DNA of 64,000 nucleotides. It comes from Streptomyces violaceorubidus (GTDB lineage: Bacteria; Actinomycetota; Actinomycetes; Streptomycetales; Streptomycetaceae). Both the position numbers and the translations under genes were made by a program. Below are positions 24,315 through 63,746 of the stretch, piece after piece. The stretch spans positions 18,274 to 82,273 of the forward strand of contig NZ_JODM01000029.1 of NCBI RefSeq assembly GCF_000717995.1. Direction: 5' to 3'. Under the pieces are notes generated by a model, which was not told where the DNA came from, ran no database searches, and saw only the letters and a program-made list of their open reading frames with translations. How positions within the stretch are numbered: position 1 is the stretch's first letter; every line of letters begins with the position of its first letter.

Positions 24315-24356
24315 GTGCGACGCTCCTTTGGCTGGGCGGGGGCCTGCCGCCTCCCA

Positions 24357-24466
24357 GGTGTATGACTCCTGGACGACGCTGTCAATACTTTGTACTTACA
24401 TTCGGACCTGCGAGTGAAATGATGTCTTGACAAAGTATTGACAGTGGGCGCCCCAAGGACTTGTAT
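24357..24466. promoter_or_regulatory. Divergent inositol promoter with mirror-image operators
   Basis: Two perfect 14-bp inverted copies, TGTCAATACTTTGT (24380-24393) and ACAAAGTATTGACA (24430-24443). Each contains a TTGACA -35 reading outwards. Rightward: -35 at 24438-24443, 17-bp spacer, -10 TTGTAT at 24461-24466. Leftward: -35 at 24380-24385, 17-bp spacer, -10-like TACACC at 24357-24362. A third dyad, TGTCTTGACA, sits at 24423-24432. A repressor bound here would shut both operons together. Confidence 0.8.
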
Positions 24467-24566
24467 CCGGTCCCAGCGCAGCAACAGCCATTCTTCTCGG
24501 GTCTGGCACTCGGGTCTGGCACACGGCATTCCCGTCGCACAGTCGCACAGTGAGGTGCAGGAAAAG

Positions 24567-25589
24567 ATGGACCGCTCTTCGCACGCCCGCTCTCGCAGAT
24601 TCGCCCCTGCCGTGGCCCTCGCCGCCGCCGCGGCCCTGACCCTCGCGGGCTGCTCCAGCAGCTCGGGCGGGAAGAAGGCCGACGAGGAGAGCGACTCGGG
24701 CGCCTCCGCGGGCAAGGCGAACACCCCCCGCATGACGGTCGCCCTGGTCACCCACCAGGCGCCCGGCGACACCTTCTGGGACATCGTCCGCAAGGGCGCC
24801 CAGGCCGCCGCCGACAAGGACAACGTCAAGCTCGTCTACTCCGCCGACCCGAACGCGGGCAACCAGGCCAACCTGGTGCAGAACGCGATCGACCAGAAGG
24901 TCGACGGCATCGCCGTCACCCTCGCCAAGCCGGACGCCATGCGGAGCGTCCTCGCCAAGGCGGAGAAGGCCGGCATACCCGTGGTCGGGCTCAACTCCGG
25001 TCTGGCGGACTGGAAGAAGCTCGGCCTGATGGAGTTCTTCGGCCAGGACGAGACCGTGGCGGGCGAGGCCCTCGGCAAGCGGCTCAACGAGGACGGGGCC
25101 AAGAAGGCCGTCTGCGTCATCCACGAACAGGGCAACGTCGGTCTGACCCAGCGCTGCGACGGCGTGAAGAAGACCTTCGAGGGCTCGATCGAGAACCTCT
25201 ACGTCAACGGCACCGACATGCCCTCGGTGAAGTCGACCGTCACCGCCAAGCTCAAGCAGGACGGCGGCATCGACCACCTGGTCACGCTCGGCGCCCCCTT
25301 CGCCATGACCGCCGTGCAGTCGGTGGACGAGTCCGGCAGCAAGGCCAAGGTCGCCACCTTCGACCTCAACAAGGAACTGACCGGCGCCATCGAGAAGGGC
25401 GACATCGAGTTCGCCGTCGACCAGCAGCCCTACCTCCAGGGCTACCTCGCGGTCGACGGACTGTGGCTCTACAAGAACAACGGCAACTACAGCGGCGGCG
25501 GTGAGCAGCCGGTGCTGACCGGCCCCGCCTTCGTCGACAAGTCCAACGTCAAGGCCGTCGCCGAGTTCGCCTCGAAGGGCACCCGGTGA
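24567..25589 (+). CDS. Inositol/sugar ABC transporter substrate-binding lipoprotein
   Basis: A 340-residue periplasmic-binding-protein-like lipoprotein (class-1 fold, as for ribose- or inositol-binding proteins). Signal peptide ends in the lipobox TLAGC (Cys29), followed by a Ser/Gly/Lys linker and the binding domain (VALVTHQAPGDTFWDIVRKGA, DGIAVTLAKPDAM, ATFDLNKELTGAIEKGDI, QQPYLQGYLAVDGLW). It captures the substrate outside the membrane for the following permease and ATPase. myo-Inositol is the likely ligand given the surrounding iol genes. It is the first gene of the rightward operon; its stop overlaps the permease start. Confidence 0.92.
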   Translation: MDRSSHARSRRFAPAVALAAAAALTLAGCSSSSGGKKADEESDSGASAGKANTPRMTVALVTHQAPGDTFWDIVRKGAQAAADKDNVKLVYSADPNAGNQANLVQNAIDQKVDGIAVTLAKPDAMRSVLAKAEKAGIPVVGLNSGLADWKKLGLMEFFGQDETVAGEALGKRLNEDGAKKAVCVIHEQGNVGLTQRCDGVKKTFEGSIENLYVNGTDMPSVKSTVTAKLKQDGGIDHLVTLGAPFAMTAVQSVDESGSKAKVATFDLNKELTGAIEKGDIEFAVDQQPYLQGYLAVDGLWLYKNNGNYSGGGEQPVLTGPAFVDKSNVKAVAEFASKGTR

Positions 25590-26665
25590 TGAGCGTGGCC
25601 AGGCAGGCCGAGCCGGCGGTGACCGCACCGCCGGTCCCCGGCCCCAAGGAGACCGACGGGCGGACCCGTGAGCGTCCCGTGGCGCTGCGGCTGCTCGCCC
25701 GGCCCGAGGTCGGGGTCTTCCTCGGTGCCGTCGCCGTGTTCGTGTTCTTCCTGATCGCCGCGCCCGCCCTTCGCGACGGCGGCTCCATGGCGACGGTGCT
25801 GTACCAGTCGTCCACCATCGGCATCATGGCGCTGCCCGTCGCCCTGCTGATGATCGGCGGCGAGTTCGACCTGTCCGCCGGTGTCGCCGTGGTCACCTCG
25901 GCGCTCACCGCCGGCATGCTCAGTTACCAGTTGACCGTGAACGTCTGGGTCGGCGTGATCGTCGCCCTGGTGGCCTCGCTCGCCGTCGGCGCCTTCAACG
26001 GCTGGGTGCTGGTGAAGACCGGCCTGCCGAGCTTCCTGGTCACGCTGGCCACCTTCCTGGTCCTCCAGGGCGTCAACCTCGCCGTCACCAAGCTCGTCAC
26101 CGGCAACGTCGCCACCGACGACATCAGCGACATGGACGGCTTCGACCAGGCCAAGGCGCTGTTCGCCTCGTCCTTCGACGTCGGCGGCGTCGAGGTGAAG
26201 ATCACGGTGGTGTGGTGGCTGGTCTTCGCGGCCCTGGCCACCTGGGTGCTGCTGCGCACCAAGTACGGCAACTGGGTCTTCGCCGTCGGCGGCAGCCAGG
26301 AGTCCGCCCGCGCGGTCGGCGTGCCGGTCACCTTCACGAAGATCACGCTGTTCATGCTGGTCGGCTTCGGCGCCTGGTTCGTCGGCATGCACCAGCTGTT
26401 CTCCTTCAACACCGTGCAGTCCGGCGAGGGCGTCGGCCAGGAGCTGATCTACATCGCGGCGGCGGTCATCGGCGGCTGCCTGCTCACCGGCGGCTACGGC
26501 TCCGCCATCGGCCCCGTCTTCGGTGCCTTCATGTTCGGCATGGTGAACCAGGGCATCGTCTTCGCGGGCTGGAACCCCGACTGGTTCAAGGCCTTCCTCG
26601 GCGTGATGCTCCTGGGCGCCGTCCTCATCAACCTGTACGTCCGCCGCGCCGCGACCCGGAGGTGA
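25589..26665 (+). CDS. Sugar ABC transporter permease (ribose/inositol type)
   Basis: A 358-residue permease of the RbsC/branched-type family with about ten membrane helices. Recognisable segments are LPVALLMIGGEFDLSAGV, FNGWVLVKTGLPSFLVTLATF, the ATPase-contact loop NWVFAVGGSQESARAVGVPV and TGGYGSAIGPVFGAFMFGM. A ~45-residue hydrophilic N-terminus precedes the first helix. The ATG is coupled to the upstream stop (TGATG); a GTG three bases earlier is an alternative. It works with the flanking binding protein and ATPase. Confidence 0.93.
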   Translation: MSVARQAEPAVTAPPVPGPKETDGRTRERPVALRLLARPEVGVFLGAVAVFVFFLIAAPALRDGGSMATVLYQSSTIGIMALPVALLMIGGEFDLSAGVAVVTSALTAGMLSYQLTVNVWVGVIVALVASLAVGAFNGWVLVKTGLPSFLVTLATFLVLQGVNLAVTKLVTGNVATDDISDMDGFDQAKALFASSFDVGGVEVKITVVWWLVFAALATWVLLRTKYGNWVFAVGGSQESARAVGVPVTFTKITLFMLVGFGAWFVGMHQLFSFNTVQSGEGVGQELIYIAAAVIGGCLLTGGYGSAIGPVFGAFMFGMVNQGIVFAGWNPDWFKAFLGVMLLGAVLINLYVRRAATRR

Positions 26666-26671
26666 TCGGAA

Positions 26672-27685
26672 ATGACCAGCAAAACCCCCGCAGCCCCCGG
26701 CACCCACGGCGCCGTCCTCGCCGACCCCGTACCCGAGCAGGACCGCCCGCTCGTCGAACTGCGCGGCGCCGGCAAGTCCTACGGCAACATCCGCGCCCTG
26801 CACGGAGTGGACCTCACCATCCACCCCGGCAGGGTGACCTGCGTGCTCGGTGACAACGGTGCCGGCAAGTCCACCCTCATCAAGATCATCTCCGGGCTGC
26901 ACCAGCACACCGAGGGCGAGTTCCTCGTCGACGGCGAGGCCGTGCGCTTCGCCACCCCGCGCGACGCCCTGGCCCGCGGCATCGCCACGGTCTACCAGGA
27001 CCTCGCGACCGTCCCGCTGATGCCGGTGTGGCGCAACTTCTTCCTCGGCTCCGAGATGACCAAGGGCCCCTGGCCCGTGCGCCGCCTCGACATCGCCCGC
27101 ATGAAGCGGACCGCCGACACGGAACTGCGCAACATGGGCATCGTCCTGGACGACCTCGAACAGCCCATCGGCACCCTCTCCGGCGGCCAGCGCCAGTGCG
27201 TCGCCATCGCCCGCGCCGTCTACTTCGGCGCCCGCGTCCTGATCCTCGACGAGCCCACCGCCGCGCTCGGCGTCAAGCAGTCGGGCGTGGTCCTCAAGTA
27301 CATCGCCGCCGCCCGCGAACGCGGCCTCGGCGTCATCTTCATCACCCACAACCCCCACCACGCCTACATGGTCGGCGACCACTTCAGCGTGCTGCGTCTG
27401 GGCACCCTCGAACTGAGCGCGGCCCGCGCCGACATCACCCTCGAAGCGCTCACCAACCACATGGCCGGCGGCGCCGAACTCGCCGCCCTCAAGCACGAGC
27501 TGGCGCAGGTCGGCGGGGTCGACGTTCAGGCGCTGCCCGACGACGCGGGCGATGCGGCGAAGGCCGCCGCGCCCGATACTGCCGACAGGACCGGCGCCGC
27601 CGCCTCCGCCGCCTCGGGCAGCACCGCATCCGACAGCACCGCATCCGACAGCACCGCATCCGGCACCGCCGAAGGGAAGGCCTGA
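26672..27685 (+). CDS. Sugar ABC transporter ATP-binding protein (single NBD)
   Basis: A 337-residue ATPase with one nucleotide-binding domain: Walker [10 protein letters not shown] (about residues 67-75), Q-loop [10 protein letters not shown], signature LSGGQRQ, Walker [11 protein letters not shown] and H-loop [10 protein letters not shown]. Rbs/Mgl-type ATPases usually have two domains; this FrcA-like half must dimerise. The C-terminal ~60 residues are an Ala/Ser/Asp-rich tail with three tandem copies of a five-residue unit encoded by 15-bp repeats, not expected to be part of the catalytic core. It lies 6 bp after the permease and 2 bp before iolE. Confidence 0.93.
27621..27665 (+). repeat. 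Three 15-bp tandem repeats inside the ABC ATPase tail
   Basis: Three near-identical units GCACCGCATCCGACA at 27621, 27636 and 27651, in frame (Ser-Thr-Ala-Ser-Asp). Slippage would lengthen or shorten the disordered tail by five residues without a frameshift. Confidence 0.9.
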
Positions 27686-27687
27686 GC

Positions 27688-28590
27688 ATGACCTCTGCCC
27701 TCGACCGCATCCGCGTCGGCTCGGCCCCCGACTCCTGGGGCGTCTGGTTCCCCGACGACCCCCGGCAGGTGCCGTGGGAACGGTTCCTGGACGAGGTCGC
27801 CGAGGCCGGCTACGACTGGATCGAGCTGGGCCCCTACGGCTACCTCCCCACCGACCCGGCCCGGCTCACCGACGAGGTGACCCGGCGCGGACTCAAGGTC
27901 TCCGCGGGCACCATCTTCTGCGGCCTGCACCGCGGCCCCTCCGAATGGGACGCCACCTGGGAACAGGTCGGCCGCGTCGCCGCCCTCACCCGGGCCATGG
28001 ACGCCAAGCACCTCGTCGTCATCCCGTCCTTCTGGCGCGACGACAAGACCGCCGAGATCCTGGAGCCCCCGGAGCTGACCGGCGAGCAGTGGACCCACCT
28101 CACCCGGGGCATGGAGCGCCTGGGCCGCGAGGTACGGGACACCTACGGCCTGGACATCGTCGTCCACCCGCACGCCGACACCCACATCGACACCGAGGAG
28201 CACGTCGAGCGCTTCCTCGACGCCACCGACTCCGACCTGGTGAACCTCTGCCTGGACACCGGTCACTACGCCTACTGCGGCGGCGACAGCGTCAAGCTGA
28301 TCAAGACCTACGGCGAGCGCATCGGCTACCTCCACCTCAAGCAGGTCGACCCGGAGATCCTGGCCGGAGTGCGGGAGGGCGGGGTGCCGTTCGGCCCGGC
28401 CGTGCAGCGCGGCGTGATGTGCGAGCCGCCCGGCGGTGTGCCGGAGCTGGGCCCGGTGCTCACCGCCGCCCAGGAACTCGGCGTGGACCTGTTCGCCATC
28501 GTCGAGCAGGACATGTACCCCTGCGAGCCGGACAAACCGCTGCCCATCGCGGTACGCACCCGGAAGTTCCTGCGCTCCTGCGGCGCCTGA
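27688..28590 (+). CDS. iolE: myo-Inosose-2 dehydratase
   Basis: A 300-residue TIM-barrel enzyme of the sugar isomerase/epimerase superfamily that dehydrates 2-keto-myo-inositol to the trihydroxycyclohexane dione used by IolD. The N-terminus GSAPDSWGVWFPDDPRQVPW and the motif DWIELGPYGYLPTDP are strongly IolE-like. Metal-site residues are plausible in HPHADTHI, CLDTGHYAY, YLHLKQVDP and IVEQDMYPCEPD. It is the last gene of the transporter operon, ending in a strong hairpin. Confidence 0.9.
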   Translation: MTSALDRIRVGSAPDSWGVWFPDDPRQVPWERFLDEVAEAGYDWIELGPYGYLPTDPARLTDEVTRRGLKVSAGTIFCGLHRGPSEWDATWEQVGRVAALTRAMDAKHLVVIPSFWRDDKTAEILEPPELTGEQWTHLTRGMERLGREVRDTYGLDIVVHPHADTHIDTEEHVERFLDATDSDLVNLCLDTGHYAYCGGDSVKLIKTYGERIGYLHLKQVDPEILAGVREGGVPFGPAVQRGVMCEPPGGVPELGPVLTAAQELGVDLFAIVEQDMYPCEPDKPLPIAVRTRKFLRSCGA

Positions 28591-35506: not shown

Positions 35507-36181
35507 ATGACCGTCACACCACTCGTCCCTGCCCCCGCCTTCCGCGGCCGGATCGGCCGCGACCCGAGCAGCGGCCACTACGCCGTGCCGCGCCGCTACC
35601 GCCTCCACCTCGCGCCCGGTCACGACGGATGTCTGGGCATCGCCGTCGTGCACCGCCTCCTCGGTCTGGACGAGGTCTGTCCGGTGACCCTCCTGCCTCG
35701 GCGCCCCGACTGTCCCGACGGCGGCTACACCGCCCTGCGACCGCTGTACGAGGCGAGCGCCCACCACTACCGGGGTCCGGCCCTCGCGCCGGTGCTCAGC
35801 GACGGCTGGTCGGGCCGGATCGTGAGCACCCACGCGCGCGACATCATGCGCGACCTCGCCCGGTCCTTCACCCCCGCCGCCGGTCCGGTGCTGTACCCCC
35901 GCGGCGCGGAGGCGGAGATCGCCGCCGTCGAGGAGCTGTGCACCCGGGCCGCGGACCCCGCGGCGCTGCCCGGGGTGCTGGACCTGCTGGAGCGGCGCCT
36001 GGGTGCGCACTCCCACCTGGCGGGCGACCGGCTCACCGCCGCCGACGTCGAGGTGTGGGCGGCCCTCGCCCGGCGCGACACCCCGCGGCGCACGGACGAG
36101 CACCCCGCCCTGCGGTCCCACCTCCGGCGCCTGAGCGCCCACCCCGCCTTCGGCCGCCACCTCGCGGGCCGCCCCGCCTGA
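35507..36181 (+). CDS. Glutathione S-transferase-like (ECM4/YqjG-related) protein
   Basis: A 224-residue protein like a shortened glutathionyl-hydroquinone reductase/GST: N-terminal basic stretch AVPRRYRLHLAPGHDGCLGIAV, with the Cys in CL near the active-site position, YEASAHHYRGPALAPVLSDGWSGRIVS split across the domain junction, and the helical C-terminal domain LLERRLGAHSHLAGDRLTAADVEV. In the full-size family the active-site Cys is in CPWA; here it is replaced (PGHDGCLG). Actinobacteria use mycothiol rather than glutathione, so the true thiol is uncertain. Confidence 0.75.
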   Translation: MTVTPLVPAPAFRGRIGRDPSSGHYAVPRRYRLHLAPGHDGCLGIAVVHRLLGLDEVCPVTLLPRRPDCPDGGYTALRPLYEASAHHYRGPALAPVLSDGWSGRIVSTHARDIMRDLARSFTPAAGPVLYPRGAEAEIAAVEELCTRAADPAALPGVLDLLERRLGAHSHLAGDRLTAADVEVWAALARRDTPRRTDEHPALRSHLRRLSAHPAFGRHLAGRPA

Positions 36182-36203
36182 CGGGACGAGACCTCCGGAA
36201 GTC

Positions 36204-36237
36204 GCCGTGTCCGCCGCCCCCCAGCGGCGGACACGGC
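36204..36237. terminator. Strong bidirectional terminator
   Basis: Perfect 14-bp stem (left arm GCCGTGTCCGCCGC) with a 6-base loop, between the GST-like gene and the convergent metzincin-like gene. No U-tract. Confidence 0.85.
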
Positions 36238-36342
36238 ATGGGCCGCGGCGCGCGTCGCCCTCCCCCGAAGGCGGCGCACGCCGCGGCCGGCCCCCGGCGC
36301 CGGTCCGTGGCCACGGCGCCCGGGTGTTCGTGAGCCGCGCGG

Positions 36343-37428
36343 TCACCAGTACATGACCGCCGTCTCGCCCGCACCCCACGAGGAGTACAGACGCACCCGG
36401 ACGACATAGCGGCGGCCCTTGACGAAACGGGCCCTGATGGTGGCGTTGCGGGGGGTTCCCCCGTCGTCCTGTCCGGCGAAGTAGCGGGGCACGCCGTCCC
36501 GCTCCTCGAAGACGACGACGACGGCGTCGCTGTCGCCGAAGGTGCCCACGGTGTACTCGCGGGTCTCCGGCGGGTCCACACGGAAGTCGGCCTGCTCGCC
36601 GGGCCCGAGACCCAACGGCACCGAGCGGAACGGCACCAGCGGACCGGGCCGGCCGGTGGGCGGGTACCAGCGCAGGGCGAACTCCTTGTCGGCGGCGGAG
36701 AGCGTACCGGGCGGGTGCAGGCCGGAGCGGTAGTGCTCGGGTTCCAGTATCAGCCCCGACGGAAACGGATACTCCATGATCGACTGCGGGTCCCAGACCG
36801 GGCCGTTGGCCTCGTCGCCGTCCAGCTTGCGCAGGATGTTGTGGAAGGTCCGCTCCCGGCTCCAGTGGTTGGGCGGGCCCGCCAGCTCGGCGTAGACGGC
36901 CTCGTCGTCCCAGAGGATGCCCGCGAACGGGCTCTGGTGCTCGTGCAGCATGCCGAGCGCGTGCCCGATCTGGTGCAGGGCGGTCGCCCGCTCGCCCGGT
37001 GCGGTCAGGTCCCAGCCGAAGTTCATCGTACGGTCGTTGAGACCCACCCGCAGCGCGTCCTTGCCCACCGCCGACCAGGACCCGTCGCCGGGCTGGAAGC
37101 CGATGCGCAGCTCCGCCTCCGACCGGTCGCGGACCTCGGTGAGCTCGAGCCCGATGCCGAGGTCCCGCCACTCCCGGAAGCAGTCGCGCACCACGTCCCG
37201 CTGCTCCTCGGTCCCCACCCACGACCCCCGCCGGGGCCGCCCGGTGCCCGGCATCGGGACCACCGAGGTGTCGGTGTCGCCACCGAGGAAGCAGTAGTGC
37301 AGCACGGTCGAGTTGACCCACATCCGCTGCCCGCCGACGAGCGCGGCGACGCGCTCTGCGGCCAGCCCCGGTGCGAGCACGGGGGCAGGCTGCTGCGCGA
37401 GCGAGCAGTAGCGTGCGGTCATGGTCAT
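36343..37428 (-). CDS. Metzincin-like (astacin/M12-type) protein with Gln in place of the catalytic Glu
   Basis: A 361-residue zinc-metalloprotease-fold protein. The zinc motif is H152-Q153-I-G-H156-A-L-G159-M-L-H162, followed by EHQSPFAG and the Met-turn-like SIMEYPFPSG; all three zinc His are kept but the general-base Glu of HExxH is Gln (codon CAG). A C-terminal beta-domain (about residues 270-361, ADFRVDPPETREYTVGTFGDSD) resembles a pre-peptidase C-terminal domain. There is no obvious signal peptide from the chosen ATG. It may be an inactive binding protein or a very slow protease. The LAL regulator gene is divergent, 65 bp away. Confidence 0.8.
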   Translation of the reverse strand: MTMTARYCSLAQQPAPVLAPGLAAERVAALVGGQRMWVNSTVLHYCFLGGDTDTSVVPMPGTGRPRRGSWVGTEEQRDVVRDCFREWRDLGIGLELTEVRDRSEAELRIGFQPGDGSWSAVGKDALRVGLNDRTMNFGWDLTAPGERATALHQIGHALGMLHEHQSPFAGILWDDEAVYAELAGPPNHWSRERTFHNILRKLDGDEANGPVWDPQSIMEYPFPSGLILEPEHYRSGLHPPGTLSAADKEFALRWYPPTGRPGPLVPFRSVPLGLGPGEQADFRVDPPETREYTVGTFGDSDAVVVVFEERDGVPRYFAGQDDGGTPRNATIRARFVKGRRYVVRVRLYSSWGAGETAVMYW

Positions 37429-37493
37429 CAGGGTGCCGCCCCGCCGGGTCCGGCGCCTGAGTCGGGGGATACTCAAGTCACCCTGTATCAGGG

Positions 37494-39329
37494 GTGAGTA
37501 GGCCGACTCATGTTGCCGTGACGACTTCTCTGCGGGACACGAAGTGGCCGGAGGCACCCTGGCCGTTCACCGGCCGGGCAGACGAACTGGAGCTGGTGCG
37601 CAGGTCCGTGGCGGCCGGACGGGTGGGCCTCGTGGTGACCGGCCCGGCGGGCGCGGGCAAGACCAGGCTTGTGACGGAGGCCGTACGCGGCACCGACTGC
37701 GTCCGGGCCGCGGGGACGCCCGAGACCCGCGACATCCCCTTCGCCGCCTTCGCCCACCTGCTGCCCGAGCAGGTCACCCTGCACCGCGCGGTACAACTCC
37801 TTACCGGTGTGCGGCTGTTGCTCGTCGACGACGCGCACCTGCTCGACGCCGCCTCGGCCGCCCTCGTGCACCAACTCGCCGTGCACGGCCGCACCCGCCT
37901 CCTGGTCGTCACCACCGACGGTGCCCCCGTACCGGGCGCGGTGTCCCGGCTGTGGGCCGGCGAGCTGCTGCCGCGCCTCGCCCTGCAACCGCTGCCCCGC
38001 GAGGAGAGCGCCGAACTGCTCACGGCCGGCACGGACACCGCCCTGGAGCCGCTCACCGTCGACCGGCTGCACCGCCTGGGCGGTGGGGACCTGCGGCTGC
38101 TGCGCGACCTGCTGACCGCCGTGCACGCGGGCGGCCGGCTCGTGCGGGTGCCGGACACGGACCAGCGGGCGTGGCGGGGACCGGTGCCGCTCACCCCCGC
38201 GGTCCGCGAGCGTGCCGCCCACGTCCTCGACCGCGCCCGCACCGAGGAGCGCGAGACGCTCGAACGCCTCGCCTTCGCCGAACCCCTGCCCCTGGACGCG
38301 GACGCCCTCGACCTGCGGACCCTGGAGAGCCTGGAGGCCGAGGGCCTGGTCACCGTCGACGACCGCGGTGCCACCCGTCTCGCGCACCCCCTGCACGGCC
38401 CGGTGCTGCGCGCCGCCGCGGGACGACTGCGGGCCCGGCGCCTGGCCCGGACCCCGGACCGGACCGGCACCGCCCTGGAGGCGGAACGGGCCGCGCTCGC
38501 CCGGCGCATCGAACAGGCCGACGTACGGCCGGTCGAGGCGCCCGTGGGGGAGTGGCTGGTCGCCGAGGGAGCGCCGCTGCCGACCGGGTACGCGGCGCTG
38601 CGGGCCCGGTTCGCCCGGTTGCGCGGACGGCTGCGTGAGGCCGCGGCCTGGGCCCGCGAGGGCCTGCGGACCCACCACGACGACCCGGACTGCCGCACCG
38701 AACTCGCCCTGGCCACCGCGCAGTCGGGCGACGGCACGCCCGACGCCGAGGGGACGGCCGCCGCCACCTGGGCCGCCGCCACCTGGGCCGCCGCCGCGCG
38801 CGGCGACCTCGACGCGGCCGTCCGCACCGCCGGCCGGGGTGACCCGTACGACGCGGTCCGCCTCGGCGCTCCCGAGCGGGCGGCCGACCGCCTGACCGGC
38901 GTCTTCGCCGCGCACGCCGAGGCCCTCGCGCGGGCGGACGGACCGGCACTCGACCGGGTAGCCAAGGAGCTGGAGCGGCGCGGATTCCTGCTGTTCGCGG
39001 CCGAGGCGAGCGCCCAGGCGGTGGGCGCCCACCACGACCCCCGGGCCGCGCGCACCGCCCGGACCCGTGCCGCCGCCCTCGCCCGGCGCTGCCAGGGCGC
39101 CCGCACCCCCGCGCTGTCCCGCCTGGTGCTCGGCGAACTCACCGCCCGGCAGCGGCAGATCGTCACGCTCGCCGCCGCGGGCCTGAGCAACCGGCAGATC
39201 GCGGAGCGGCTGACCCTGTCCGTCCGCACCGTCGGCAACCACCTCTACGGCGCCTACACCCGCCTCGGCGCGGGCGACCGCGGCGCCCTGCCCTGGCTCG
39301 TGGAACTGCCCGCGCCCCAGCCCGCCTGA
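37494..39329 (+). CDS. LuxR family regulator with AAA/P-loop domain (short LAL type)
   Basis: A 611-residue regulator. The P-loop VVTGPAGAGKTRLV is near residues 47-60 with Walker B LLLVDDAHLLD, then a helical middle region with an Ala/Trp repeat, and a LuxR helix-turn-helix at the C-terminus: LTARQRQIVTLAAAGLSNRQIAERL and VRTVGNHLYGAYTRLG. It is shorter than classic ~900-residue LAL proteins. The GTG start is uncertain; a GTG at 37518 also fits because the first family-like residues follow it. Neither has a good ribosome site. It may control the divergent metzincin-like gene (inference). Confidence 0.87.
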   Translation: MSRPTHVAVTTSLRDTKWPEAPWPFTGRADELELVRRSVAAGRVGLVVTGPAGAGKTRLVTEAVRGTDCVRAAGTPETRDIPFAAFAHLLPEQVTLHRAVQLLTGVRLLLVDDAHLLDAASAALVHQLAVHGRTRLLVVTTDGAPVPGAVSRLWAGELLPRLALQPLPREESAELLTAGTDTALEPLTVDRLHRLGGGDLRLLRDLLTAVHAGGRLVRVPDTDQRAWRGPVPLTPAVRERAAHVLDRARTEERETLERLAFAEPLPLDADALDLRTLESLEAEGLVTVDDRGATRLAHPLHGPVLRAAAGRLRARRLARTPDRTGTALEAERAALARRIEQADVRPVEAPVGEWLVAEGAPLPTGYAALRARFARLRGRLREAAAWAREGLRTHHDDPDCRTELALATAQSGDGTPDAEGTAAATWAAATWAAAARGDLDAAVRTAGRGDPYDAVRLGAPERAADRLTGVFAAHAEALARADGPALDRVAKELERRGFLLFAAEASAQAVGAHHDPRAARTARTRAAALARRCQGARTPALSRLVLGELTARQRQIVTLAAAGLSNRQIAERLTLSVRTVGNHLYGAYTRLGAGDRGALPWLVELPAPQPA

Positions 39330-39347: not shown

Positions 39348-42300
39348 TCAGGCCGCGCCGAACGCGGAGAAGGCCCACCCCGTCGCCTGGTGCACCGCGT
39401 CGCCCGGCAACGAGGCCCGCGCGTCGCGCAGCGCCTCCGCCAGGGACAGGCCCGCCTCCAGCCCCTTGTGCAGCGCGAGCATCAGCGGCACCACCGCGGC
39501 GTCGTTGACCGGCGCGGTGCACGCCACCACCCCGGCCGTGCCCAGCGGCAGCAGCGCGGTGACCAGGCCCAGCAGCTCGTCGGCGCCGACCGAGGCGAAG
39601 CGCGCGGTGTCGCAGCAGGGCAGGATGATCCGGTACGGGCTGCTGTCGAGCCGTTCGAAGTCGTGCACGATGAGCGGCCCGTCCGCCATCCGCAGCGAGG
39701 AGAACAAAGGGCTGTCCGCACGGAAGGTCCCGTGCGCCGCGATGTGCGCCAGGGCCGCCCCGTCCAGCTCCCCAAGGACCCGTGGCACCCGCGCGTCGTC
39801 GCCCTCCAGCACGACGGTCGCACCCCGCACGGCGGCGCCCTCCCCGGGCACGCCCGAGGGCCCGCGCCGCCCGCCGCCGGGCCGCCCCCCACCCTCGCGT
39901 TCCCCCCGAGCGGCCTCCGAGCCGCCTTCGTCTCCGACGCACGGGTGCGAACGCGTCGTGCCGCCACCCGCCCCGGCCGGGTCCTGGTGCTCCCCGGGGC
40001 CCGGCCCGTCGTGCGGTGGCACGGCGCGCGTCCCGGTCGGTTCGCCGCGGGGCCCGAGGTCGGGCCCACGGCGTGCGGGCACCTCCCGCGCTGCGGGCGG
40101 GCCCTGCCGCTGCTCCCGGTTCCGCCCGTCGTGGGACGGTGTGCCACGGGTCCCCGTCGGCTCGCCGTGGTCCCCTCGCCCGCTCCGGGCCCGCCCGCCC
40201 TGCGCCGGCGGCTCGCGTGTGCCCGGCGGTGCGGCGGGCGGTGGTGCGGCGGGCGGTGGTGCGGCCGGGGCGGCTCCTGCCGGGGGCCGCCGGTGGGCGT
40301 AGCGCTCGGAGAGTTCGGGGACCTCGGCCCCGCCGCTCGCCAGACCGGGGCCGCGCACCAGGACCTGGCGGCCGCCGGGCGGGGGAGCGGTGTCCCCCGC
40401 GCGCAGCCAACTGCTCGCCGACGGCGACACGCTCAGCACCCTCTCCCGCAGGGCGGGCAGCAGGGCCCACGGCACCCGGTGCAGCCGGCCCGGCGGGACC
40501 ACCACGACCGGCCCGGAGCCGAGGTGGGCCGTCGCCGGTCCGAGCAGCAGGCGCTCAAGCCGCGCCCCGGCCGCTTCCACCAGCGGCAGCCGCGCCTCGG
40601 CCCCCGGGTGGGCCAGCCGCCGCAGCCCGGCCTGGACGTGCTCGGCCTCGACCTCCGCCTCGGCCAGCAGCCCGGCCTCGAACCGCCTGACCCGCCCCTG
40701 CCCGCACAGCAGCACGTGCACCCGCCCGTCGAGCACCGCCAGCTCCACCAGCCGCACCTCGTCGCCCAGCCGCCGCAGCAGCCGCCCCACGTCGAACCGG
40801 TCGCCGCCGCCGGGCGCCTCGCCCCGCATGTGCAGGGTGCGCGAGCGGATCTCCCGCTCCAGACGCCGCTGTTCGCGCTCCAGCGCCAGAACGGGCCGAC
40901 CGCCGTCGGTGCGGGCCTCCTCCGCGCGGGCCGCGAGTTCCCGGTACGCCGTCATGGCGGTCAGCAGCACCGGATCGGCCGGCGGCCGGGTCGGCGGCGC
41001 CGACAGCACCGTCGCCCGCCAGCGCTCGCTCCAGCCCAGCAGCCGCCGCGGCCCGCCCGAGACCAGCGAGGCCCGCTGCGCCAGCGCCGCCAGCTCCGCA
41101 CCCTGCGCGGTGGCCCGGGCCCGCAGCTCCGAGGCGCCCAGCGTCATCCGGTGGTCGTCCAGGACGTCCAGACCGCGCCGGCAGGCCTCCAGCACGCCCC
41201 GCGCCGACCCCGCCGCCCGCGCCCGCAGCGCCTGCGCCGCCCAGCCCGTCATCCGCGCCGGCGGCGGCCCGCTGTGCCGGCTGCGCGCGGCCACCGCCAG
41301 ATGCCGTTCCGCGTCCTCGGTCCAGCCGAGGTCCAGCGCTATCCGGCCGGCGAGGAGCGAGGCCTCCGGCGCGGCCGGCGCACCGAAGGCCGCCAGCCGC
41401 TCCGCCACCGCCGCCGCGTCCGCGACCAGCCGGCCCGACCCCCGGCCCGTGGCGACCCGCGCCTCGATCAGCACCAACCGGGCGTGCGTCTCGTACCAGG
41501 TGCGCCGCTGCCCGGCGAACAGCCGCACCGCGACGGCCGCGCGCGCGAGCGCGGTCTGCGGCTCGTCCGCGAGCCGGGCCGCCCGCGCGGCCACCAGCAG
41601 CAACTCCGCCTTGCGGGTGGACTGACCGCCCATTCCGTCCAGCGCCGCGATCGCCGCGTCCGCCTCCGCCAGCGCCTCGGTGGCCAGCCCCGCCGCCATC
41701 AGCACCTCGCAGCGCCGGATGGTGAGCATGAACGTGGGCGTGCCCAGCTTCCCGTACCGCTCCTCCGCCTCGTCGAGGAGCCGCAGCGCCGCCGGCACGT
41801 CACCCGACCGGAAGGCGGCCAGCCCCCGGCTCTCCACCGCGTCGGCCTTGTCGTGCTCCTGGCCCGTGGTGTCCCACAGGGCCTCCGCCGCGGTGAAGTC
41901 GGCGTCAGCCCGCTCCACCGAGCCCAGCGCCAGGTGCACGGTCGCCCGCAGCGTCAGCGCCCGCGCCGTCCAGATCACGTCGTCGGCCTGCCGCAGCACC
42001 GGGATCGCCCGCCGTACGTCCTCCAGCGCCTCGCCGTGCCGGCCGAGGACCCACCACACGTACGCCCGCCGGTACAGCACCCGCGCGCGGGTGTGACCGG
42101 TCCCGCGCGCCACGCCCCGCTCGAACGCGGCCAGCCCCGCCCGGGTACGTCCCGCGTGCACCAGCGCGACCCCGAGCGTCGCCAGGACGTCCGCCTCCCG
42201 CTCGGCCGACTCCGCGCGGGCGGCGAGGTCACGGGCGCGCCGCAGATGGGCCAGGGACAGCCGGGTGTCACCGAAGTCCCGCTGCCAGATGCCGATCACC

Positions 42301-42431
42301 TGATGGGCGACCGAGGCGTGCAGCGGCGAGGGACCGGTGCCGAGCAACTCCTCCGCCCGCGCCAGCGCTTCGCCCGGGGCGGCGAACACCATCGGCAGCA
42401 GGTCGAGAACCGGGTCGTTGCGCGCTGTCAC
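39348..42431 (-). CDS. TPR-CHAT (caspase-like) domain protein
   Basis: A 1027-residue protein. Residues ~1-500 are tetratricopeptide-like helical repeats (such as LAHLRRARDLAARAESAEREA and ALARAEELLGTG). The C-terminal CHAT domain is a caspase/separase-clan cysteine protease fold; the dyad is His900 (HIAAHGTFRADSP) and Cys940 (ILPCCDTARF, second Cys). A ~150-residue Pro/Gly/Arg-rich low-complexity insert (39820-40290) interrupts the domain before the His strand. The GTG start was preferred over an upstream TTG at 42485, which lacks support. TPRs may sense a partner and release the protease. It is divergent from a subtilase/sigma operon, with which it probably forms a functional module. Confidence 0.88.
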   Translation of the reverse strand: MTARNDPVLDLLPMVFAAPGEALARAEELLGTGPSPLHASVAHQVIGIWQRDFGDTRLSLAHLRRARDLAARAESAEREADVLATLGVALVHAGRTRAGLAAFERGVARGTGHTRARVLYRRAYVWWVLGRHGEALEDVRRAIPVLRQADDVIWTARALTLRATVHLALGSVERADADFTAAEALWDTTGQEHDKADAVESRGLAAFRSGDVPAALRLLDEAEERYGKLGTPTFMLTIRRCEVLMAAGLATEALAEADAAIAALDGMGGQSTRKAELLLVAARAARLADEPQTALARAAVAVRLFAGQRRTWYETHARLVLIEARVATGRGSGRLVADAAAVAERLAAFGAPAAPEASLLAGRIALDLGWTEDAERHLAVAARSRHSGPPPARMTGWAAQALRARAAGSARGVLEACRRGLDVLDDHRMTLGASELRARATAQGAELAALAQRASLVSGGPRRLLGWSERWRATVLSAPPTRPPADPVLLTAMTAYRELAARAEEARTDGGRPVLALEREQRRLEREIRSRTLHMRGEAPGGGDRFDVGRLLRRLGDEVRLVELAVLDGRVHVLLCGQGRVRRFEAGLLAEAEVEAEHVQAGLRRLAHPGAEARLPLVEAAGARLERLLLGPATAHLGSGPVVVVPPGRLHRVPWALLPALRERVLSVSPSASSWLRAGDTAPPPGGRQVLVRGPGLASGGAEVPELSERYAHRRPPAGAAPAAPPPAAPPPAAPPGTREPPAQGGRARSGRGDHGEPTGTRGTPSHDGRNREQRQGPPAAREVPARRGPDLGPRGEPTGTRAVPPHDGPGPGEHQDPAGAGGGTTRSHPCVGDEGGSEAARGEREGGGRPGGGRRGPSGVPGEGAAVRGATVVLEGDDARVPRVLGELDGAALAHIAAHGTFRADSPLFSSLRMADGPLIVHDFERLDSSPYRIILPCCDTARFASVGADELLGLVTALLPLGTAGVVACTAPVNDAAVVPLMLALHKGLEAGLSLAEALRDARASLPGDAVHQATGWAFSAFGAA

Positions 42432-42597
42432 CCCACGGATGGTAGTGCTCCGGAACCACGCCCCACAGGTTCGAGTCTGTATCAATCGGCCGTCCAGGGA
42501 CTCTGATTGACGACCGCAGTCACCATCGCCGTCACGACCGCAGTCACGACCGCGACCCCGACCGTCGTCACCGCCGCCGCCTCAGTGGAGGACAAGC
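42432..42597. promoter_or_regulatory. Divergent promoter region of the CHAT/subtilase module
   Basis: Contains an inverted repeat TCAATC (42482-42487) and GATTGA (42505-42510) that could supply outward -35-like elements (TTGATA leftward, TTGACG rightward), a GAACC/GGTTC dyad around 42453-42474, and short direct repeats of CGACCGCAGTCAC (42511-42553) just before the subtilase gene. No certain -10 is seen. Confidence 0.4.
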
Positions 42598-44031
42598 ATG
42601 GCACCACAGCGATTCCGTGAGCAGTTCGACCAGATCCAGCGCTCGATGCCGGACGTCCCGCTGGCGATGGGTCCGGACGACTCCGCCGAGTTCTTCTACG
42701 AGAAGGGCGTCGTCCTCGCCCGCGACGGCGAGGAGGCACGCCTCGTCGAGGACACCGTGCGCGACCACTTCACCACCATGGCCGGGCTGACCCCGGACCA
42801 CGTGCGCCGCACGAGCCCCGAGACCAACCGCACCGGCATCACCCGCATCCGGGTCGCCGACCCCGGCGAGGGCGACGGCGGCGGCGACCCCACCGTCGCC
42901 CACGCCCTGCGCTCCCTCAGGACGATGGAGGGCCGCGCGGGACGCCGGCTGATCAGCCGCAACCACGTCGTCTCCATCGCCGTCAACGCCTGCCCCGGCG
43001 ACGAGCCCGTGCCCGTCCCGTCGAGCGAGCCGCCGAACCCGGCCGCCGACGGGACGCCGTACGACGCCGCCACCGCCGTCGGCGTCCTCGTCGTCGACAC
43101 CGGCCTCATGCGCGACTACCGGTCCTACCCGCTGCTGGCCCACACCGAGGGCGACGCCCAGATCAGGGAATGCGACGACGACGGCGTCCTGTGCCAGTAC
43201 GTCGGGCACGGCACGTTCATCGCCGGGCTGGTCGCCGCCGTGGCGCCCAACACCGAGGTGACCGTCCGCAACACCCTCAACGACGCGGGCGCGATCCTGG
43301 AGTCCGAGCTGGGCGAGAGGCTCTTCGAGGCCGTGGACCGCAGCGGCTGGCCCGAGATCCTCAGCCTCTCCGCCGGCACCTCCAACGGCCGCACCGACGG
43401 CCTGCTCGGCGTGCACGCCTTCATGGAGGAACTCCGCGACCAGCGCACCCTGCTGGTCGCCGCCGCGGGCAACAACGCCAGCGCCACGCTCTTCTGGCCC
43501 GCCGCCTACGCCACCCTCCCGGGCTGGGAGGAGTCGGTGCTGTCCATCGGGGCGCTGCGCTCGGACGGCGAGTACGGCGCCTGTTTCAGCAACCACGGCG
43601 GCTGGGTGCGGGCCTACGCCCCCGGCGAGCGCCTCACCAGCGCCCTCACCGGCTTCGGGACACCCGTGCCGTACGTCTACCAGCACTCCACCTACGACGC
43701 CTGCCGGTACGGCTTCGGCTACGCCTGCACCTGCCAGTACCCCCGGCACAACGGGGTGCTGAGCGAGCCGGGCGAGGCACCCGCCAAGCCGGACCAGGTG
43801 ATGTTCGAGGGGCACGCGCAGTGGAGCGGCACCTCCTTCGCCACCCCCGTGGTCGCGGGACTGGTCGCCTCCCGCATGACGGCGCACCACGAGACCGACC
43901 CGCGCGCGGCCGGGCGGCAACTGCTCGCGGCCACCACCGAGTACGCGGAGGTGCGCGGGGCGCACGTGCCCGCGCTGCTGCCTCCCACCTGGCGCCCGGT
44001 CCCCGTCGACCCGTCGGAAGGCGGGTCGTGA
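42598..44031 (+). CDS. S8 family serine peptidase (subtilase) without export signal
   Basis: A 477-residue subtilisin-fold protease. Catalytic triad: Asp167 (GVLVVDTGL), His204 (YVGHGTFIAGLV), Ser413 (WSGTSFATPVVAGL); oxyanion Asn292 (AAAGNNAS). A ~160-residue N-terminal domain precedes it, with no signal peptide or lipobox, so it should be cytosolic. A Cys-bearing insert (C369, C377, C379) and a loop around VLCQYVGHGT with C199 lie near the active-site side. It is divergent from the TPR-CHAT gene and 71 bp upstream of a sigma-factor gene. It could be the substrate or executor of the CHAT protease or the reverse (inference). Confidence 0.9.
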   Translation: MAPQRFREQFDQIQRSMPDVPLAMGPDDSAEFFYEKGVVLARDGEEARLVEDTVRDHFTTMAGLTPDHVRRTSPETNRTGITRIRVADPGEGDGGGDPTVAHALRSLRTMEGRAGRRLISRNHVVSIAVNACPGDEPVPVPSSEPPNPAADGTPYDAATAVGVLVVDTGLMRDYRSYPLLAHTEGDAQIRECDDDGVLCQYVGHGTFIAGLVAAVAPNTEVTVRNTLNDAGAILESELGERLFEAVDRSGWPEILSLSAGTSNGRTDGLLGVHAFMEELRDQRTLLVAAAGNNASATLFWPAAYATLPGWEESVLSIGALRSDGEYGACFSNHGGWVRAYAPGERLTSALTGFGTPVPYVYQHSTYDACRYGFGYACTCQYPRHNGVLSEPGEAPAKPDQVMFEGHAQWSGTSFATPVVAGLVASRMTAHHETDPRAAGRQLLAATTEYAEVRGAHVPALLPPTWRPVPVDPSEGGS

Positions 44032-44102
44032 ACGGCCTGCTGACGGTCGGAACCCTCCACTCCACGGCGTACGATGGCATGTCGTACACGAGGGGTGGGA
44101 CC

Positions 44103-44678
44103 GTGGACCGTGCAGATGTCGGAGCGCTCGTCCAGTCGGCGGCCGACGGGGACGCGGCGGCCTGGAAGTCACTGGTGGACGGGCTCGGCCCGCTCGTGTG
44201 GTCCGTGGCCAGGTCGCACGGGCTCTCCGACGCCGACGCGCACGAGGTGTACCAGACCGCCTGGTTCCGCTTCGCCCAGCACCTGGGGCGGATCAGGGAA
44301 CCGGAGAAGACCGGCTCCTGGCTGGCCAGCACGGCCCGGCACGAGTGCCTGAAGCTGCTCAGGGCCTCCAAGCGGTGGACGCCGACCGACGACCCGCAGC
44401 TGCTCGACCGGCCGAGCGAGGACCGCACGCCGGAGGAGTCGGTGCTTGACTCCGAGGAGGCCGCCGCGCAGACCGAGCGCGTACGGCTGCTGTGGCAGGA
44501 GTTCGAGGAACTGGGCGAGCGCTGCCGCCAGTTGCTGCGCGTGCTGATCTCCTCGCCACCGCCCAGTTATCAGGAGGTGTCCGCCGCGCTGGGTATCGCG
44601 GTGGGCAGCATCGGGCCGATGCGCCAGCGCTGTCTGCGCCGGTTGCGGGCCCGGCTGGAGGCACGGGGGACGAAATGA
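44103..44678 (+). CDS. ECF-type RNA polymerase sigma factor
   Basis: A 191-residue sigma-70-family factor with only regions 2 and 4. Region 2: LGPLVWSVARSHGLSDADAHEV, then YQTAWFRFAQHLGRIREPEKTGSWL. Region 4: LISSPPPSYQEVSAALGIAVG with the recognition-helix segment SIGPMRQRCLRRLRARL. GTG chosen with GAGGGG seven bases upstream; an in-frame ATG at 44079 is possible. No anti-sigma factor with a membrane segment is adjacent; instead the gene overlaps a small acidic protein gene by four bases. Likely targets are this module's own promoters, but no clear consensus was found. Confidence 0.9.
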   Translation: MDRADVGALVQSAADGDAAAWKSLVDGLGPLVWSVARSHGLSDADAHEVYQTAWFRFAQHLGRIREPEKTGSWLASTARHECLKLLRASKRWTPTDDPQLLDRPSEDRTPEESVLDSEEAAAQTERVRLLWQEFEELGERCRQLLRVLISSPPPSYQEVSAALGIAVGSIGPMRQRCLRRLRARLEARGTK

Positions 44679-45166
44679 GCGATCTGAACGACGAGTACGG
44701 CGAGCGCGACGCGCCCGACGAGCGGGACGCGGAGCTGTACGACGGTCTCCTGGAGGAGGAACTGCGGCAGGCCGCCGCGATCCTCGACCCGGTCCCGGCC
44801 GAGCTGCGGCGCACGGCCGTCGACGCCTTCGCCCTGCGCGACCTGGACGCCCGCGTCGCCGAGCTGACCTTCGACTCGCTGGTGGACGGCATCCCCGTCA
44901 GGGGGGAGGCGGACCCGCCGCGGATGCTGACCTTCCAGTCGGACGGGGTGACCGTCGACGTCGAGGTGACCGCCGAGGGCCTGATCGGCCAGCTGCTGCC
45001 GCCCGGCCCGGCCGGGATCGAGGTGCTGAGCGGCCCCCGCGCGCATGCCCGGCTGACGGCCGACGACATGGGCCGCTTCACCGGCGAGGCCCCGCCCGCC
45101 GGCCCCTTCGCGCTGCGGCTGCGCACCGGCCGGGAGGTGGTCGTGACGGAGTGGCTGCGCGCCTGA
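44675..45166 (+). CDS. Small acidic protein co-translated with the sigma factor
   Basis: A 163-residue protein not belonging to a family I can name with certainty. N-terminal ~35 residues are very acidic (NDEYGERDAPDERDAELYDG), followed by a helical stretch (EEELRQAAAILDPVPAELRR) and a beta-rich C-terminal half (TFQSDGVTVDVEVTAEGLIG, FALRLRTGREVVVTEWLRA). No membrane segment or Zn-binding HxxxCxxC, so it is not a standard ZAS anti-sigma factor. ATGA overlap with the sigma gene implies linked stoichiometry; it may be a cytosolic antagonist, adaptor or protease substrate (inference). Confidence 0.75.
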   Translation: MSDLNDEYGERDAPDERDAELYDGLLEEELRQAAAILDPVPAELRRTAVDAFALRDLDARVAELTFDSLVDGIPVRGEADPPRMLTFQSDGVTVDVEVTAEGLIGQLLPPGPAGIEVLSGPRAHARLTADDMGRFTGEAPPAGPFALRLRTGREVVVTEWLRA

Positions 45167-58605: not shown

Positions 58606-60210
58606 TCAGACGCGCAGCCACACCGCCGTGTCGCCCGGCAGCCGCCCGGCCCCGTCCAGGGGCCCGCTGACGAGCAGCACGGCAGCGTGCGCGGGCAGCT
58701 CGACCGGCGCGGCGGACAGGTTGACGACGCACACCGGGCCGCCCGCGCGCCGGAACGCGAGGACGCCGTCCGGCGCGGGCAGCCACTCCAGAGCGCCGTC
58801 GCCGAACCCCGCGGTGGAGCGCCGCAGGGCCAGGGCCGCGCGGTAGAGCGAGAGCATCGACTGCGGGTCCGCGCCCTGGCGGTCCGCCGCGTACGCCGAC
58901 CAGCCCTCCGGCTGCGGCAGCCAGGGCTCGCTCTGTGAGCCGAACCCGCAGTACGGCGCGTCCGCGGCCCACGGAAGCGGCACCCGGCAGCCGTCCCGTC
59001 CCGGATCGACGCCGCCGGAGCGGAAGTGCATCGGGTCCTGGATCCGCTCGCGCGGGATGTCGGCCTCGGGCAGGCCGAGTTCCTCCCCCTGGTACAGGTA
59101 CACGGACCCGGGCAGGGCCAGCGTCAGCAGCGCGGCGGCCCGCGCCCGCCGGGTGCCCAGGGCCAGGTCGGTCGGGGTGCCGAAGGCCTTCTTCGCGAAG
59201 TCGAACCCGGTGTCCTCGCGGCCGTACCGGGTCGCCGTGCGGGTCACGTCGTGGTTGCACAACACCCAGGTGGCCGGGGCGCCGACGGGGGCGTGCTCCG
59301 CCAGGGTGTCGTCGATGGTGCGGCGCAGCCGGTCCGCCTCCCAGGGGCAGGACAGGAAGTTGAAGTTGAAGGCGGTGTGCAGTTCGTCGGGCCGCAAGTA
59401 GCGGGCGAAGCGCTCGGCGTCGGGCAGCCACACCTCACCGACGAAGACGCCCCCGTACGCGTCGGCGACCTTGCGCCAGGAGCGGTAGATGTCGTGCAGC
59501 TCGTCCTGGTCGATGTACGGGTGCGGGTCGACGCCCTCCACGAAGTCCGCGAGCGCGGGATCCTTCGCGAGCAGGGCGGCGGAGTCGATGCGTACGCCCG
59601 CCACCCCGCGCTCGAACCAGAACCGCAGCACGTCCTCGTGCTCCCGGCGCACCTCGGGATGGGCCCAGTTGAGATCGGGCTGCTCCGGGGTGAACAGGTG
59701 CAGGTACCACTCGCCGTCAGGGACCCGGGTCCAGGTGCGGCCGGAGAACTGGGAGGGCCAGTCGTTGGGCGGCAGCTCGCCGTCGGCGCCGCGGCCGGGA
59801 CGGAAGTGGAACCGCTCCCGCTCCGCGCTGCCCGGGCCCGCCTCCAGCGCCGCCCGGAACCAGGCGTGCTGGTCGGAGACGTGGTTGGGGACGATGTCGA
59901 CGATCGTGCGGATGCCCAGCTCCCGAGCCTCGGCGATCAGCTTCTCGGCCTCGCCCAGGGTGCCGAAGGCGGGGTCGATGGTGCGGTAGTCGGCGACGTC
60001 GTAGCCGCCGTCGACGAGCGGTGAGACGTACCAGGGGGTGAACCAGACGGCGTCCACACCGAGTTCGGCGAGGTAGGGCAGTCTCGACCTCACGCCCGCG
60101 AGGTCACCGGTGCCGTCGCCGTCGCCGTCGGCGAAACTGCGGGGGTACACCTGGTAGATGACGGCGTCGCGCCACCAGTCGTCGGTGCGGTGCGAGTTGG
60201 GGGCTGCCAC
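58606..60210 (-). CDS. aglA: Alpha-glucosidase (GH13) of the agl operon
   Basis: A 534-residue GH13 alpha-glucosidase/oligo-1,6-glucosidase-like enzyme. Catalytic triad: nucleophile Asp209 (GVRIDSAALL), acid/base Glu259 (VFVGEVWLPD), stabilising Asp321 (LCNHDVTR). The N-terminus WWRDAVIYQVYPRSFADGDGDG, split into the first strand and Ca-loop region, and VDIVPNHVSDQHAWF are typical. No signal peptide, so it hydrolyses imported maltose-, trehalose- or isomaltose-type sugars. It is last in the operon, 141 bp after the permease with a large hairpin between them. Confidence 0.92.
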   Translation of the reverse strand: MAAPNSHRTDDWWRDAVIYQVYPRSFADGDGDGTGDLAGVRSRLPYLAELGVDAVWFTPWYVSPLVDGGYDVADYRTIDPAFGTLGEAEKLIAEARELGIRTIVDIVPNHVSDQHAWFRAALEAGPGSAERERFHFRPGRGADGELPPNDWPSQFSGRTWTRVPDGEWYLHLFTPEQPDLNWAHPEVRREHEDVLRFWFERGVAGVRIDSAALLAKDPALADFVEGVDPHPYIDQDELHDIYRSWRKVADAYGGVFVGEVWLPDAERFARYLRPDELHTAFNFNFLSCPWEADRLRRTIDDTLAEHAPVGAPATWVLCNHDVTRTATRYGREDTGFDFAKKAFGTPTDLALGTRRARAAALLTLALPGSVYLYQGEELGLPEADIPRERIQDPMHFRSGGVDPGRDGCRVPLPWAADAPYCGFGSQSEPWLPQPEGWSAYAADRQGADPQSMLSLYRAALALRRSTAGFGDGALEWLPAPDGVLAFRRAGGPVCVVNLSAAPVELPAHAAVLLVSGPLDGAGRLPGDTAVWLRV

Positions 60211-60237
60211 GTGACGGTCCTTTCGGGCAGGGTGGAT

Positions 60238-60288
60238 CTTCGCCGCCGGCCCGGACGGAGCGGGGCGTCGGACGGGCCGGCGGCGAAG
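60238..60288 (-). terminator. Large intra-operon hairpin between transporter and aglA
   Basis: Perfect 16-bp stem (arms CTTCGCCGCCGGCCCG and CGGGCCGGCGGCGAAG) with a 19-base loop. It would reduce read-through from the permease gene into aglA or protect the upstream mRNA 3' end. Confidence 0.75.
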
Positions 60289-60351
60289 GTTGACGGGACG
60301 GGCCGGGAGAGGGGGAGGGGGCCGGGCGGCGGGCGCCCCGGCCGCGGAGCC

Positions 60352-61227: not shown

Positions 61228-61241
61228 CGTTTCCCCCGGCT

Positions 61242-62201: not shown

Positions 62202-62232
62202 CGTCGCTCCTTGGGACTGATCTCATGGGCCC

Positions 62233-62258
62233 CGGGGGGCGGTGCGGCCCGCCCCCCG
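62233..62258 (-). terminator. Hairpin between binding-protein and permease genes
   Basis: Perfect 10-bp stem (CGGGGGGCGG... type arms, 62233-62242 with 62249-62258), 6-base loop, 11 bp after the binding-protein stop. A likely attenuator or mRNA-stabilising structure. Confidence 0.75.
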
Positions 62259-62268
62259 AGGGAGCCGG

Positions 62269-63684: not shown

Positions 63685-63714
63685 GGGTGGTCCCCTTCGG
63701 GCATGAACGTGGAA

Positions 63715-63746
63715 GGCGCCCCACCGCCGATGCGTTGTGGGGCGCC
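63715..63746 (-). terminator. Hairpin between the LacI gene and aglE
   Basis: Perfect 9-bp stem (GGCGCCCCA/TGGGGCGCC), 14-base loop, 90 bp after the LacI stop and 31 bp before the aglE start. It may end the regulator transcript or fold in the aglE leader. Confidence 0.6.

Follow-up and report, generated by a model that had tools for sequence, protein, structure and literature searches.

A widely inherited gene set of Actinomycetota for a TPR-CHAT protease, a subtilase, an ECF sigma factor and an acidic protein, possibly a CRISPR-free counterpart of Craspase

A 64,000-nucleotide stretch of the Streptomyces violaceorubidus genome (contig NZ_JODM01000029.1, hereafter the window) carries at 39348..45166 four intact genes, encoding a TPR-CHAT protein, a subtilase, an extracytoplasmic function (ECF) sigma factor and a small acidic protein, as an earlier reading of the DNA (the original prediction) had described them. 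These four genes are a real, widely inherited unit of Actinomycetota, and the set matches the published gene context of the sigma factor group ECF54, an assignment made by context and not by an ECF54 profile. We propose, with a probability of roughly 40%, that they work as an ECF54-type transcription switch which resembles Craspase but is independent of CRISPR. The features on which this proposal rests are as follows.

39348..42431, minus strand: TPR-CHAT gene, 1027 residues; His900 codon at 39732-39734, Cys940 codon at 39612-39614
42598..44031, plus strand: subtilase (S8) gene, 477 residues; Asp167 at 43096-43098, His204 at 43207-43209, Ser413 at 43834-43836
44103..44678, plus strand: ECF-type sigma factor gene, 191 residues, sigma2-sigma4 only; an alternative ATG at 44079 gives 199 residues
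44675..45166, plus strand: acidic protein gene, 163 residues; candidate anti-sigma factor or substrate
44675..44678, plus strand: ATGA overlap of the sigma stop and the acidic-protein start, read from the sequence
44900..44902, plus strand: Arg76 codon in the linker of the acidic protein; putative cleavage site between Arg and Gly

The acidic protein was searched for in 120 related genomes, 45 of which matched at E up to 1e-3 (three weakly, in unrelated long frames), and its alignment in 396 genomes across the phylum, with matches in 51 of the 396 genomes and 32 of 245 genera. Around these relatives 92 stretches of up to 20 kb each were fetched and their open reading frames (ORFs) profile-searched; the controls were 20 stretches of these genomes, each displaced by about 500 kb. 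Nine of the 49 places in the related genomes were left out (the window's own, G086, G087, G085, G078, G094:C907 and the weak matches in 810-812-residue frames of G004, G015 and G025), as were five of the 60 places in the 396-genome set (the window, two fetched earlier, G267 and G286:497790). All four genes are present at 71 of the 92 loci, and the others hold sigma factor and acidic protein (11), these two with CHAT (4), the acidic protein alone (3), subtilase and acidic protein (2), or subtilase, sigma factor and acidic protein (1). Among the controls, 19 of 20 contained none of the families and one contained a sigma factor match; CHAT, subtilase and acidic protein were found in 0 of 20. The original prediction had proposed a search for co-occurrence of the four families, and with these numbers the set proves to be conserved far beyond close relatives. 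When named Streptomyces loci were collected via the sigma factor, 77 of 80 held all four genes, the remaining three being shorter and lacking CHAT; in the collection of named genomes the closest sigma genes are all from Streptomyces (best 80 of 559 relatives), the top one, from S. tendae, at 99% identity. In Streptomyces the CHAT gene is divergent from the subtilase gene, and in other families the order is subtilase-sigma-acidic-CHAT on one strand. One locus (L133, G208) has a tandem pair of acidic-CHAT-subtilase sets, with a sigma gene beside one of them only.

Co-inheritance extends to genomes in which the genes are unlinked. Of 19 genomes whose locus is incomplete, 14 were searched whole with the CHAT and subtilase alignments, and in nine of these 14 (G105, G114, G145, G197, G227, G266, G281, G392 and G486) full-length CHAT and subtilase genes lie less than 500 bases apart elsewhere. 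In G367 both genes stand at contig ends, in G326 CHAT is present with a weak subtilase match only, in G102 a CHAT fragment lies at a contig end, and in G076 the incomplete locus is a second copy, the complete cassette being included in stretches L175-L202. At E up to 1e-3 for the acidic protein and up to 1e-30 for TPR-CHAT, the 396 genomes divide into 48 with both, three with the acidic protein only (G349, G382, G440), five with CHAT only (G127, G143, G296, G327 and G343, four of them from a family in which the acidic protein is barely detectable) and 340 with neither (Fisher p 2.8e-52, uncorrected for kinship). Among 73 close relatives, 30 have both and 41 neither; one has only the acidic protein (G086, whose contig ends in CHAT) and one only CHAT (G001, 79% complete). 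Since genome-wide co-occurrence holds also when the genes are unlinked, the set is best described as two sub-modules, one of sigma factor and acidic protein and one of CHAT and subtilase, which in most cases are joined and passed on together. The original prediction had regarded a sigma-acidic pair regularly found without the proteases and showing no interaction as evidence against a joint function; such pairs do exist, at 11 of 92 loci, but the CHAT-subtilase pair found elsewhere in nine of 14 genomes and the strong co-occurrence take much of the force from this objection. Ten neighbouring ORFs from eight lone sigma/acidic loci included no CHAT or S8 protein; they were metabolic, gyrase, penicillin-binding and similar proteins, with one PmbA/TldD metallopeptidase and one unmatched ORF.

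The CHAT protein gives a Pfam CHAT match of 8.3e-22, covering only positions 121-284 of the 289 in the profile, together with TPR_12. The numbering His900/Cys940 is consistent with the 1027-residue start at GTG 42431, a start common to most of 25 Streptomyces relatives, and the predicted catalytic dyad is intact in 143 of 143 aligned relatives. In its AlphaFold2 model (pLDDT, the per-residue confidence, 80.2; pTM, the overall fold score, 0.77) TPR helices begin at the very start of the chain, and the fold has likeness to Craspase Csx29 and to separase. The His/Cys dyad lies in a caspase-like fold, as in cysteine peptidases of the CHAT/separase type, and both residues line up with those of Csx29. 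The same genome encodes another CHAT protein outside the window, at C2:18406-19320 (L001), in a frame of 1291 residues (E 1.2e-47). The subtilase matches Peptidase_S8 at 3.9e-15, and its predicted triad, Asp167/His204/Ser413, is invariant in 21 aligned rows; all 154 ORFs that align in full keep it too, with six more partial, a count in which some ORFs may be other subtilases at those loci. By eye, no hydrophobic signal stretch was seen at its N-terminus (MAPQRFREQFDQIQ...), in agreement with the signal-less enzyme of the original prediction, and both proteases probably act inside the cell.

The sigma factor (Sigma70_r2 1.6e-11; TIGR02937 8.7e-21 over residues 28-193 of the 199-residue form) consists of sigma2 and sigma4 without an extension, the architecture of the ECF54 type. 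Its start at GTG 44103 is present in 26 of 26 aligned rows and the ATG at 44079 in about four, as counted by eye. At all 85 loci holding both genes, sigma stands directly upstream of the acidic gene on the same strand, an arrangement like that of a sigma/anti-sigma pair; the four-base overlap pointed out for the window in the original prediction is ATGA. Natural sigma-acidic fusions, which would be proof of contact, were absent from the ORFs of all 92 loci and the 20 controls.

The 163-residue acidic protein has an isoelectric point of 4.28, no Pfam (E up to 0.01) or NCBIfam match and no peptidase domain. ZAS anti-sigma factors are characterised by a Cys-containing zinc motif, which the acidic protein of the window, entirely free of cysteine, does not carry. 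Its AlphaFold2 model (pLDDT 81.5, pTM 0.50) shows a helical hairpin (16-70), a linker (71-80) and a beta-sandwich (83-157). Arg76 lies in the part of the linker with low confidence (pLDDT below 50 for residues 72-77); it is kept in 167 of 169 sequences, and the residue after it is Gly, Ser, Ala or Thr in 166 of 167. Judged from the alignment and the model, Arg76 looks like a candidate protease cut site whose cleavage would release the sigma factor.

A 2022 review names carboxypeptidase, subtilase and CHAT proteins as the conserved gene context of ECF54 and, citing Casas-Pastor 2021 and Huang 2015, mentions a proposal that members of the group are controlled by proteolysis of their sigma factor (PMC8999054, in excerpt). 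The present set agrees with this group in an ECF sigma factor without a recognised anti-sigma factor and in the conserved subtilase and CHAT neighbours, and the whole context is found in 71 of 92 loci if the acidic protein is taken as the 'carboxypeptidase'. Probably it is, to judge from three of the 120 relatives listed (of 2014), whose UniRef names start with 'Carboxypeptidase regulatory-l' or 'regulator'; however, the acidic protein differs in having no peptidase domain, gives no Pfam match for a Carboxypeptidase regulatory-like domain and is by fold just a general Ig-like beta-sandwich. This identity would drop one of the three published proteases and add a candidate anti-sigma factor. Because the set matches the ECF54 context in that excerpt, the original prediction was wrong in its impression that it had not been described before. 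What is new relative to ECF54 is the reading of the acidic protein as anti-sigma factor and substrate, the Arg76 site, and the unlinked yet co-occurring CHAT-subtilase pair.

Among protease-sigma circuits whose working has been established, the closest are Craspase and Calp. In Craspase (Cas7-11/Csx29/Csx30/CASP-sigma, type III-E CRISPR) the TPR-CHAT protein Csx29 cuts the sigma inhibitor Csx30 (PMC10028731, in excerpt). The present set shares a TPR-CHAT protein with a His/Cys dyad, but its partner has 163 residues instead of 565 and a second protease is present. The RAMP family of the gRAMP/Cas7-11 partner (PF03787) has no match in the window's whole genome, with four of 14 control genomes positive, and for this reason the set is not Craspase itself. 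At E up to 10 the acidic-protein profile found no match among Csx30 chains in the PDB, a sequence search being blind to distant folds. Parts and order nevertheless fit Craspase logic without CRISPR. In Calp (CalpL/CalpT/CalpS) a Lon protease cuts the anti-sigma factor CalpT and frees the sigma factor (PMC12751052, in excerpt), the kind of release proposed here, although that protease is a Lon-SAVED protein switched by cyclic oligoadenylate whereas the present set has TPR-CHAT and subtilase. EACC2 systems likewise combine a predicted caspase with ECF sigma and TPR genes (PMC8195603, in excerpt), but their domains are EACC2 and DUF1822, and that excerpt describes no subtilase.

By analogy with Craspase, the acidic protein would be made together with the sigma factor and keep it inactive as a soluble anti-sigma factor, probably using the helical hairpin at its N-terminus to bind it. 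When the TPR superhelix senses a trigger, the separase/Csx29-like CHAT protease would become active, cut the acidic protein in the flexible linker after Arg76 and part the hairpin from the beta-sandwich. The signal-less subtilase may complete or amplify the removal of the acidic protein, or may itself be switched on by CHAT, and the freed sigma factor would then redirect RNA polymerase to its regulon. The full version of this scheme, a chromosomal, CRISPR-independent Craspase relative across Actinomycetota in which a separase-like TPR-CHAT protease cuts a two-domain anti-sigma factor after an invariant Arg followed by Gly, Ser or Ala, and thereby releases an ECF54 sigma factor while a cytosolic subtilase serves as the second protease, is rather doubtful.

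Several points weigh against such a switch. At 21 of the 92 loci at least one family is missing nearby; some of the missing genes are assembly gaps, since several stretches stop at contig ends (e.g. L056, L068, L070, L113, L130, L132 and L147). G382 has no CHAT of the TPR-CHAT kind and no subtilase match genome-wide. Pfam and NCBIfam recognise no anti-sigma domain in the acidic protein, and the pTM of its model is only 0.50. Arg76 may instead be a structural or docking residue; the P4 position relative to a cut there is mostly Ile, Leu or Val, unlike the ExxR context of separase, and a fixed Arg is not predicted from Csx29, because Craspase orthologues cut at non-conserved, non-Arg sites (PMC11106740, in excerpt). 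Nothing assigns the subtilase its step. Finally, a self-regulation motif shared across families was not found: autoregulation was rejected, as the regions before the sigma, subtilase and CHAT genes have no motif, gapped or plain, that is convincingly common across families above the shuffled level. The counts of GGAAC-N14-17-CGW run counter to this rejection, and autoregulation may yet apply in Streptomyces: in 16 of 25 Streptomyces rows (0.3 expected) the motif stands upstream of sigma, where it overlaps TACGAT, and in eight of 49 others (2.6 expected) it occurs upstream of the subtilase.

What, then, could the two proteases do if not free the sigma factor? One answer is a zymogen cascade in which CHAT mainly activates the subtilase. 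Sigma and acidic protein would then set expression or be an output linked to the cascade, and the acidic protein would be an adaptor or chaperone and not an inhibitor. In nine of 14 genomes CHAT and subtilase do sit side by side, away from the sigma pair, they lie within 600 bases in most complete loci, and about 150 residues precede the subtilase's catalytic domain; however, inspection of the alignment by eye showed neither a conserved Arg nor another likely site of processing in this N-terminal region, and the best cut-site candidate is in the acidic protein, so we consider the cascade unlikely. The published proposal, in which degradation by the peptidases keeps the ECF54 sigma factor inactive and no anti-sigma factor is involved, was stated for the same gene set (PMC8999054, in excerpt), but it counts the 'carboxypeptidase' as a protease, whereas the constant extra gene has no peptidase domain and is placed behind sigma in the manner of an anti-sigma gene, and some genomes have the proteases away from sigma, whereas at all 85 loci holding both genes the acidic gene directly follows sigma; this proposal appears quite unlikely. 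That the TPR-CHAT protein takes the part of the anti-sigma factor, its protease site being secondary, is very improbable. In the DdvA/DdvS pair of Myxococcus a CHAT-containing protein does control an ECF sigma factor, but DdvA is a transmembrane anti-sigma factor (according to its PDB title), whereas no membrane part was seen in the present CHAT protein, which begins directly with TPR helices, has an unbroken dyad and in several genomes is encoded away from sigma; the gene behind sigma is that of a separate small protein. Most improbable is a phage-defence or programmed-death module, a link made in the original prediction for which we found no evidence: published parallels (EACC2 caspase systems in the excerpt of PMC8195603, Craspase, Calp) and patchy presence within the genus would suit it, but the 65 long Streptomyces loci keep stable chromosomal neighbours (formylglutamate amidohydrolase in 63, absR2 in 54, absR1 in 50), PADLOC matched neither CHAT, sigma nor acidic protein and gave weak subtilase-type matches only, and the window's genome has no RAMP gene.

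Further elements of the locus are listed below.

44070..44075, plus strand: TACGAT, predicted -10-like promoter element upstream of sigma; strictly kept in Streptomyces (26-row alignment)
42439..42444, minus strand: TACCAT, predicted -10-like element immediately before the GTG start of CHAT; kept in most of the 26 rows
39834..40289, minus strand: insertion of about 150 residues (715-866) within the CHAT domain, disordered and rich in Pro, Gly and Arg; pLDDT below 50

The position of TACCAT suggests that the CHAT transcript is possibly leaderless. The CHAT-domain insertion contains a partly repeated stretch, GEPTGTR..., and is absent from close relatives (e.g. L033, about 150 residues shorter). 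The CHAT-subtilase gap (42432-42597) holds blocks kept in Streptomyces, CTGTATCA and GGCTCT...TGACGAC, that the putative promoters do not explain. An AdpA motif has been reported for SCO6995 (PMC2936110); control by AdpA was rejected for the window, where the motif matches this gap once, with two mismatches, against 3.8 matches expected from the background of the window. On one side the set is flanked by AbsR1 and AbsR2, both of which score above the cut-off of their NCBIfam equivalogs, and on the other by N-formylglutamate amidohydrolase. AbsR1 (35507-37557) is called a beta-glucuronidase by NCBIfam NF050131, and Pfam gives only a faint metallopeptidase (Matrixin/Astacin) signal. The G+C content is lower at 24001-28000 (0.69) and 60001-64000 (0.67), compared with about 0.74.

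By gene order alone, the equivalents in S. coelicolor are probably SCO6992 (absR1), SCO6993, SCO6994 (CHAT), SCO6995, SCO6996 and SCO6997; SCO6993 is of the LuxR type and divergent from SCO6992 (PMC9628970, in excerpt), and the papers searched gave no text on SCO6994 or SCO6997. The set there, probably SCO6994-SCO6997, adjoins absR, a locus tied to antibiotic production. Because the chromosomal neighbours are stable in Streptomyces, they point to a role of the locus in development or physiology and not in mobile defence. Arg76, a putative acidic substrate and two candidate proteases make a concrete and cheap test of an ECF54 mechanism that the excerpt of PMC8999054 gives only as a proposal. 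If the switch is real, control of sigma factors by caspase/separase-like proteases would be a widespread route of cellular signalling instead of a CRISPR speciality, and the CRISPR-linked sigma-release circuit would be one branch of a wider design of proteolytic signalling.

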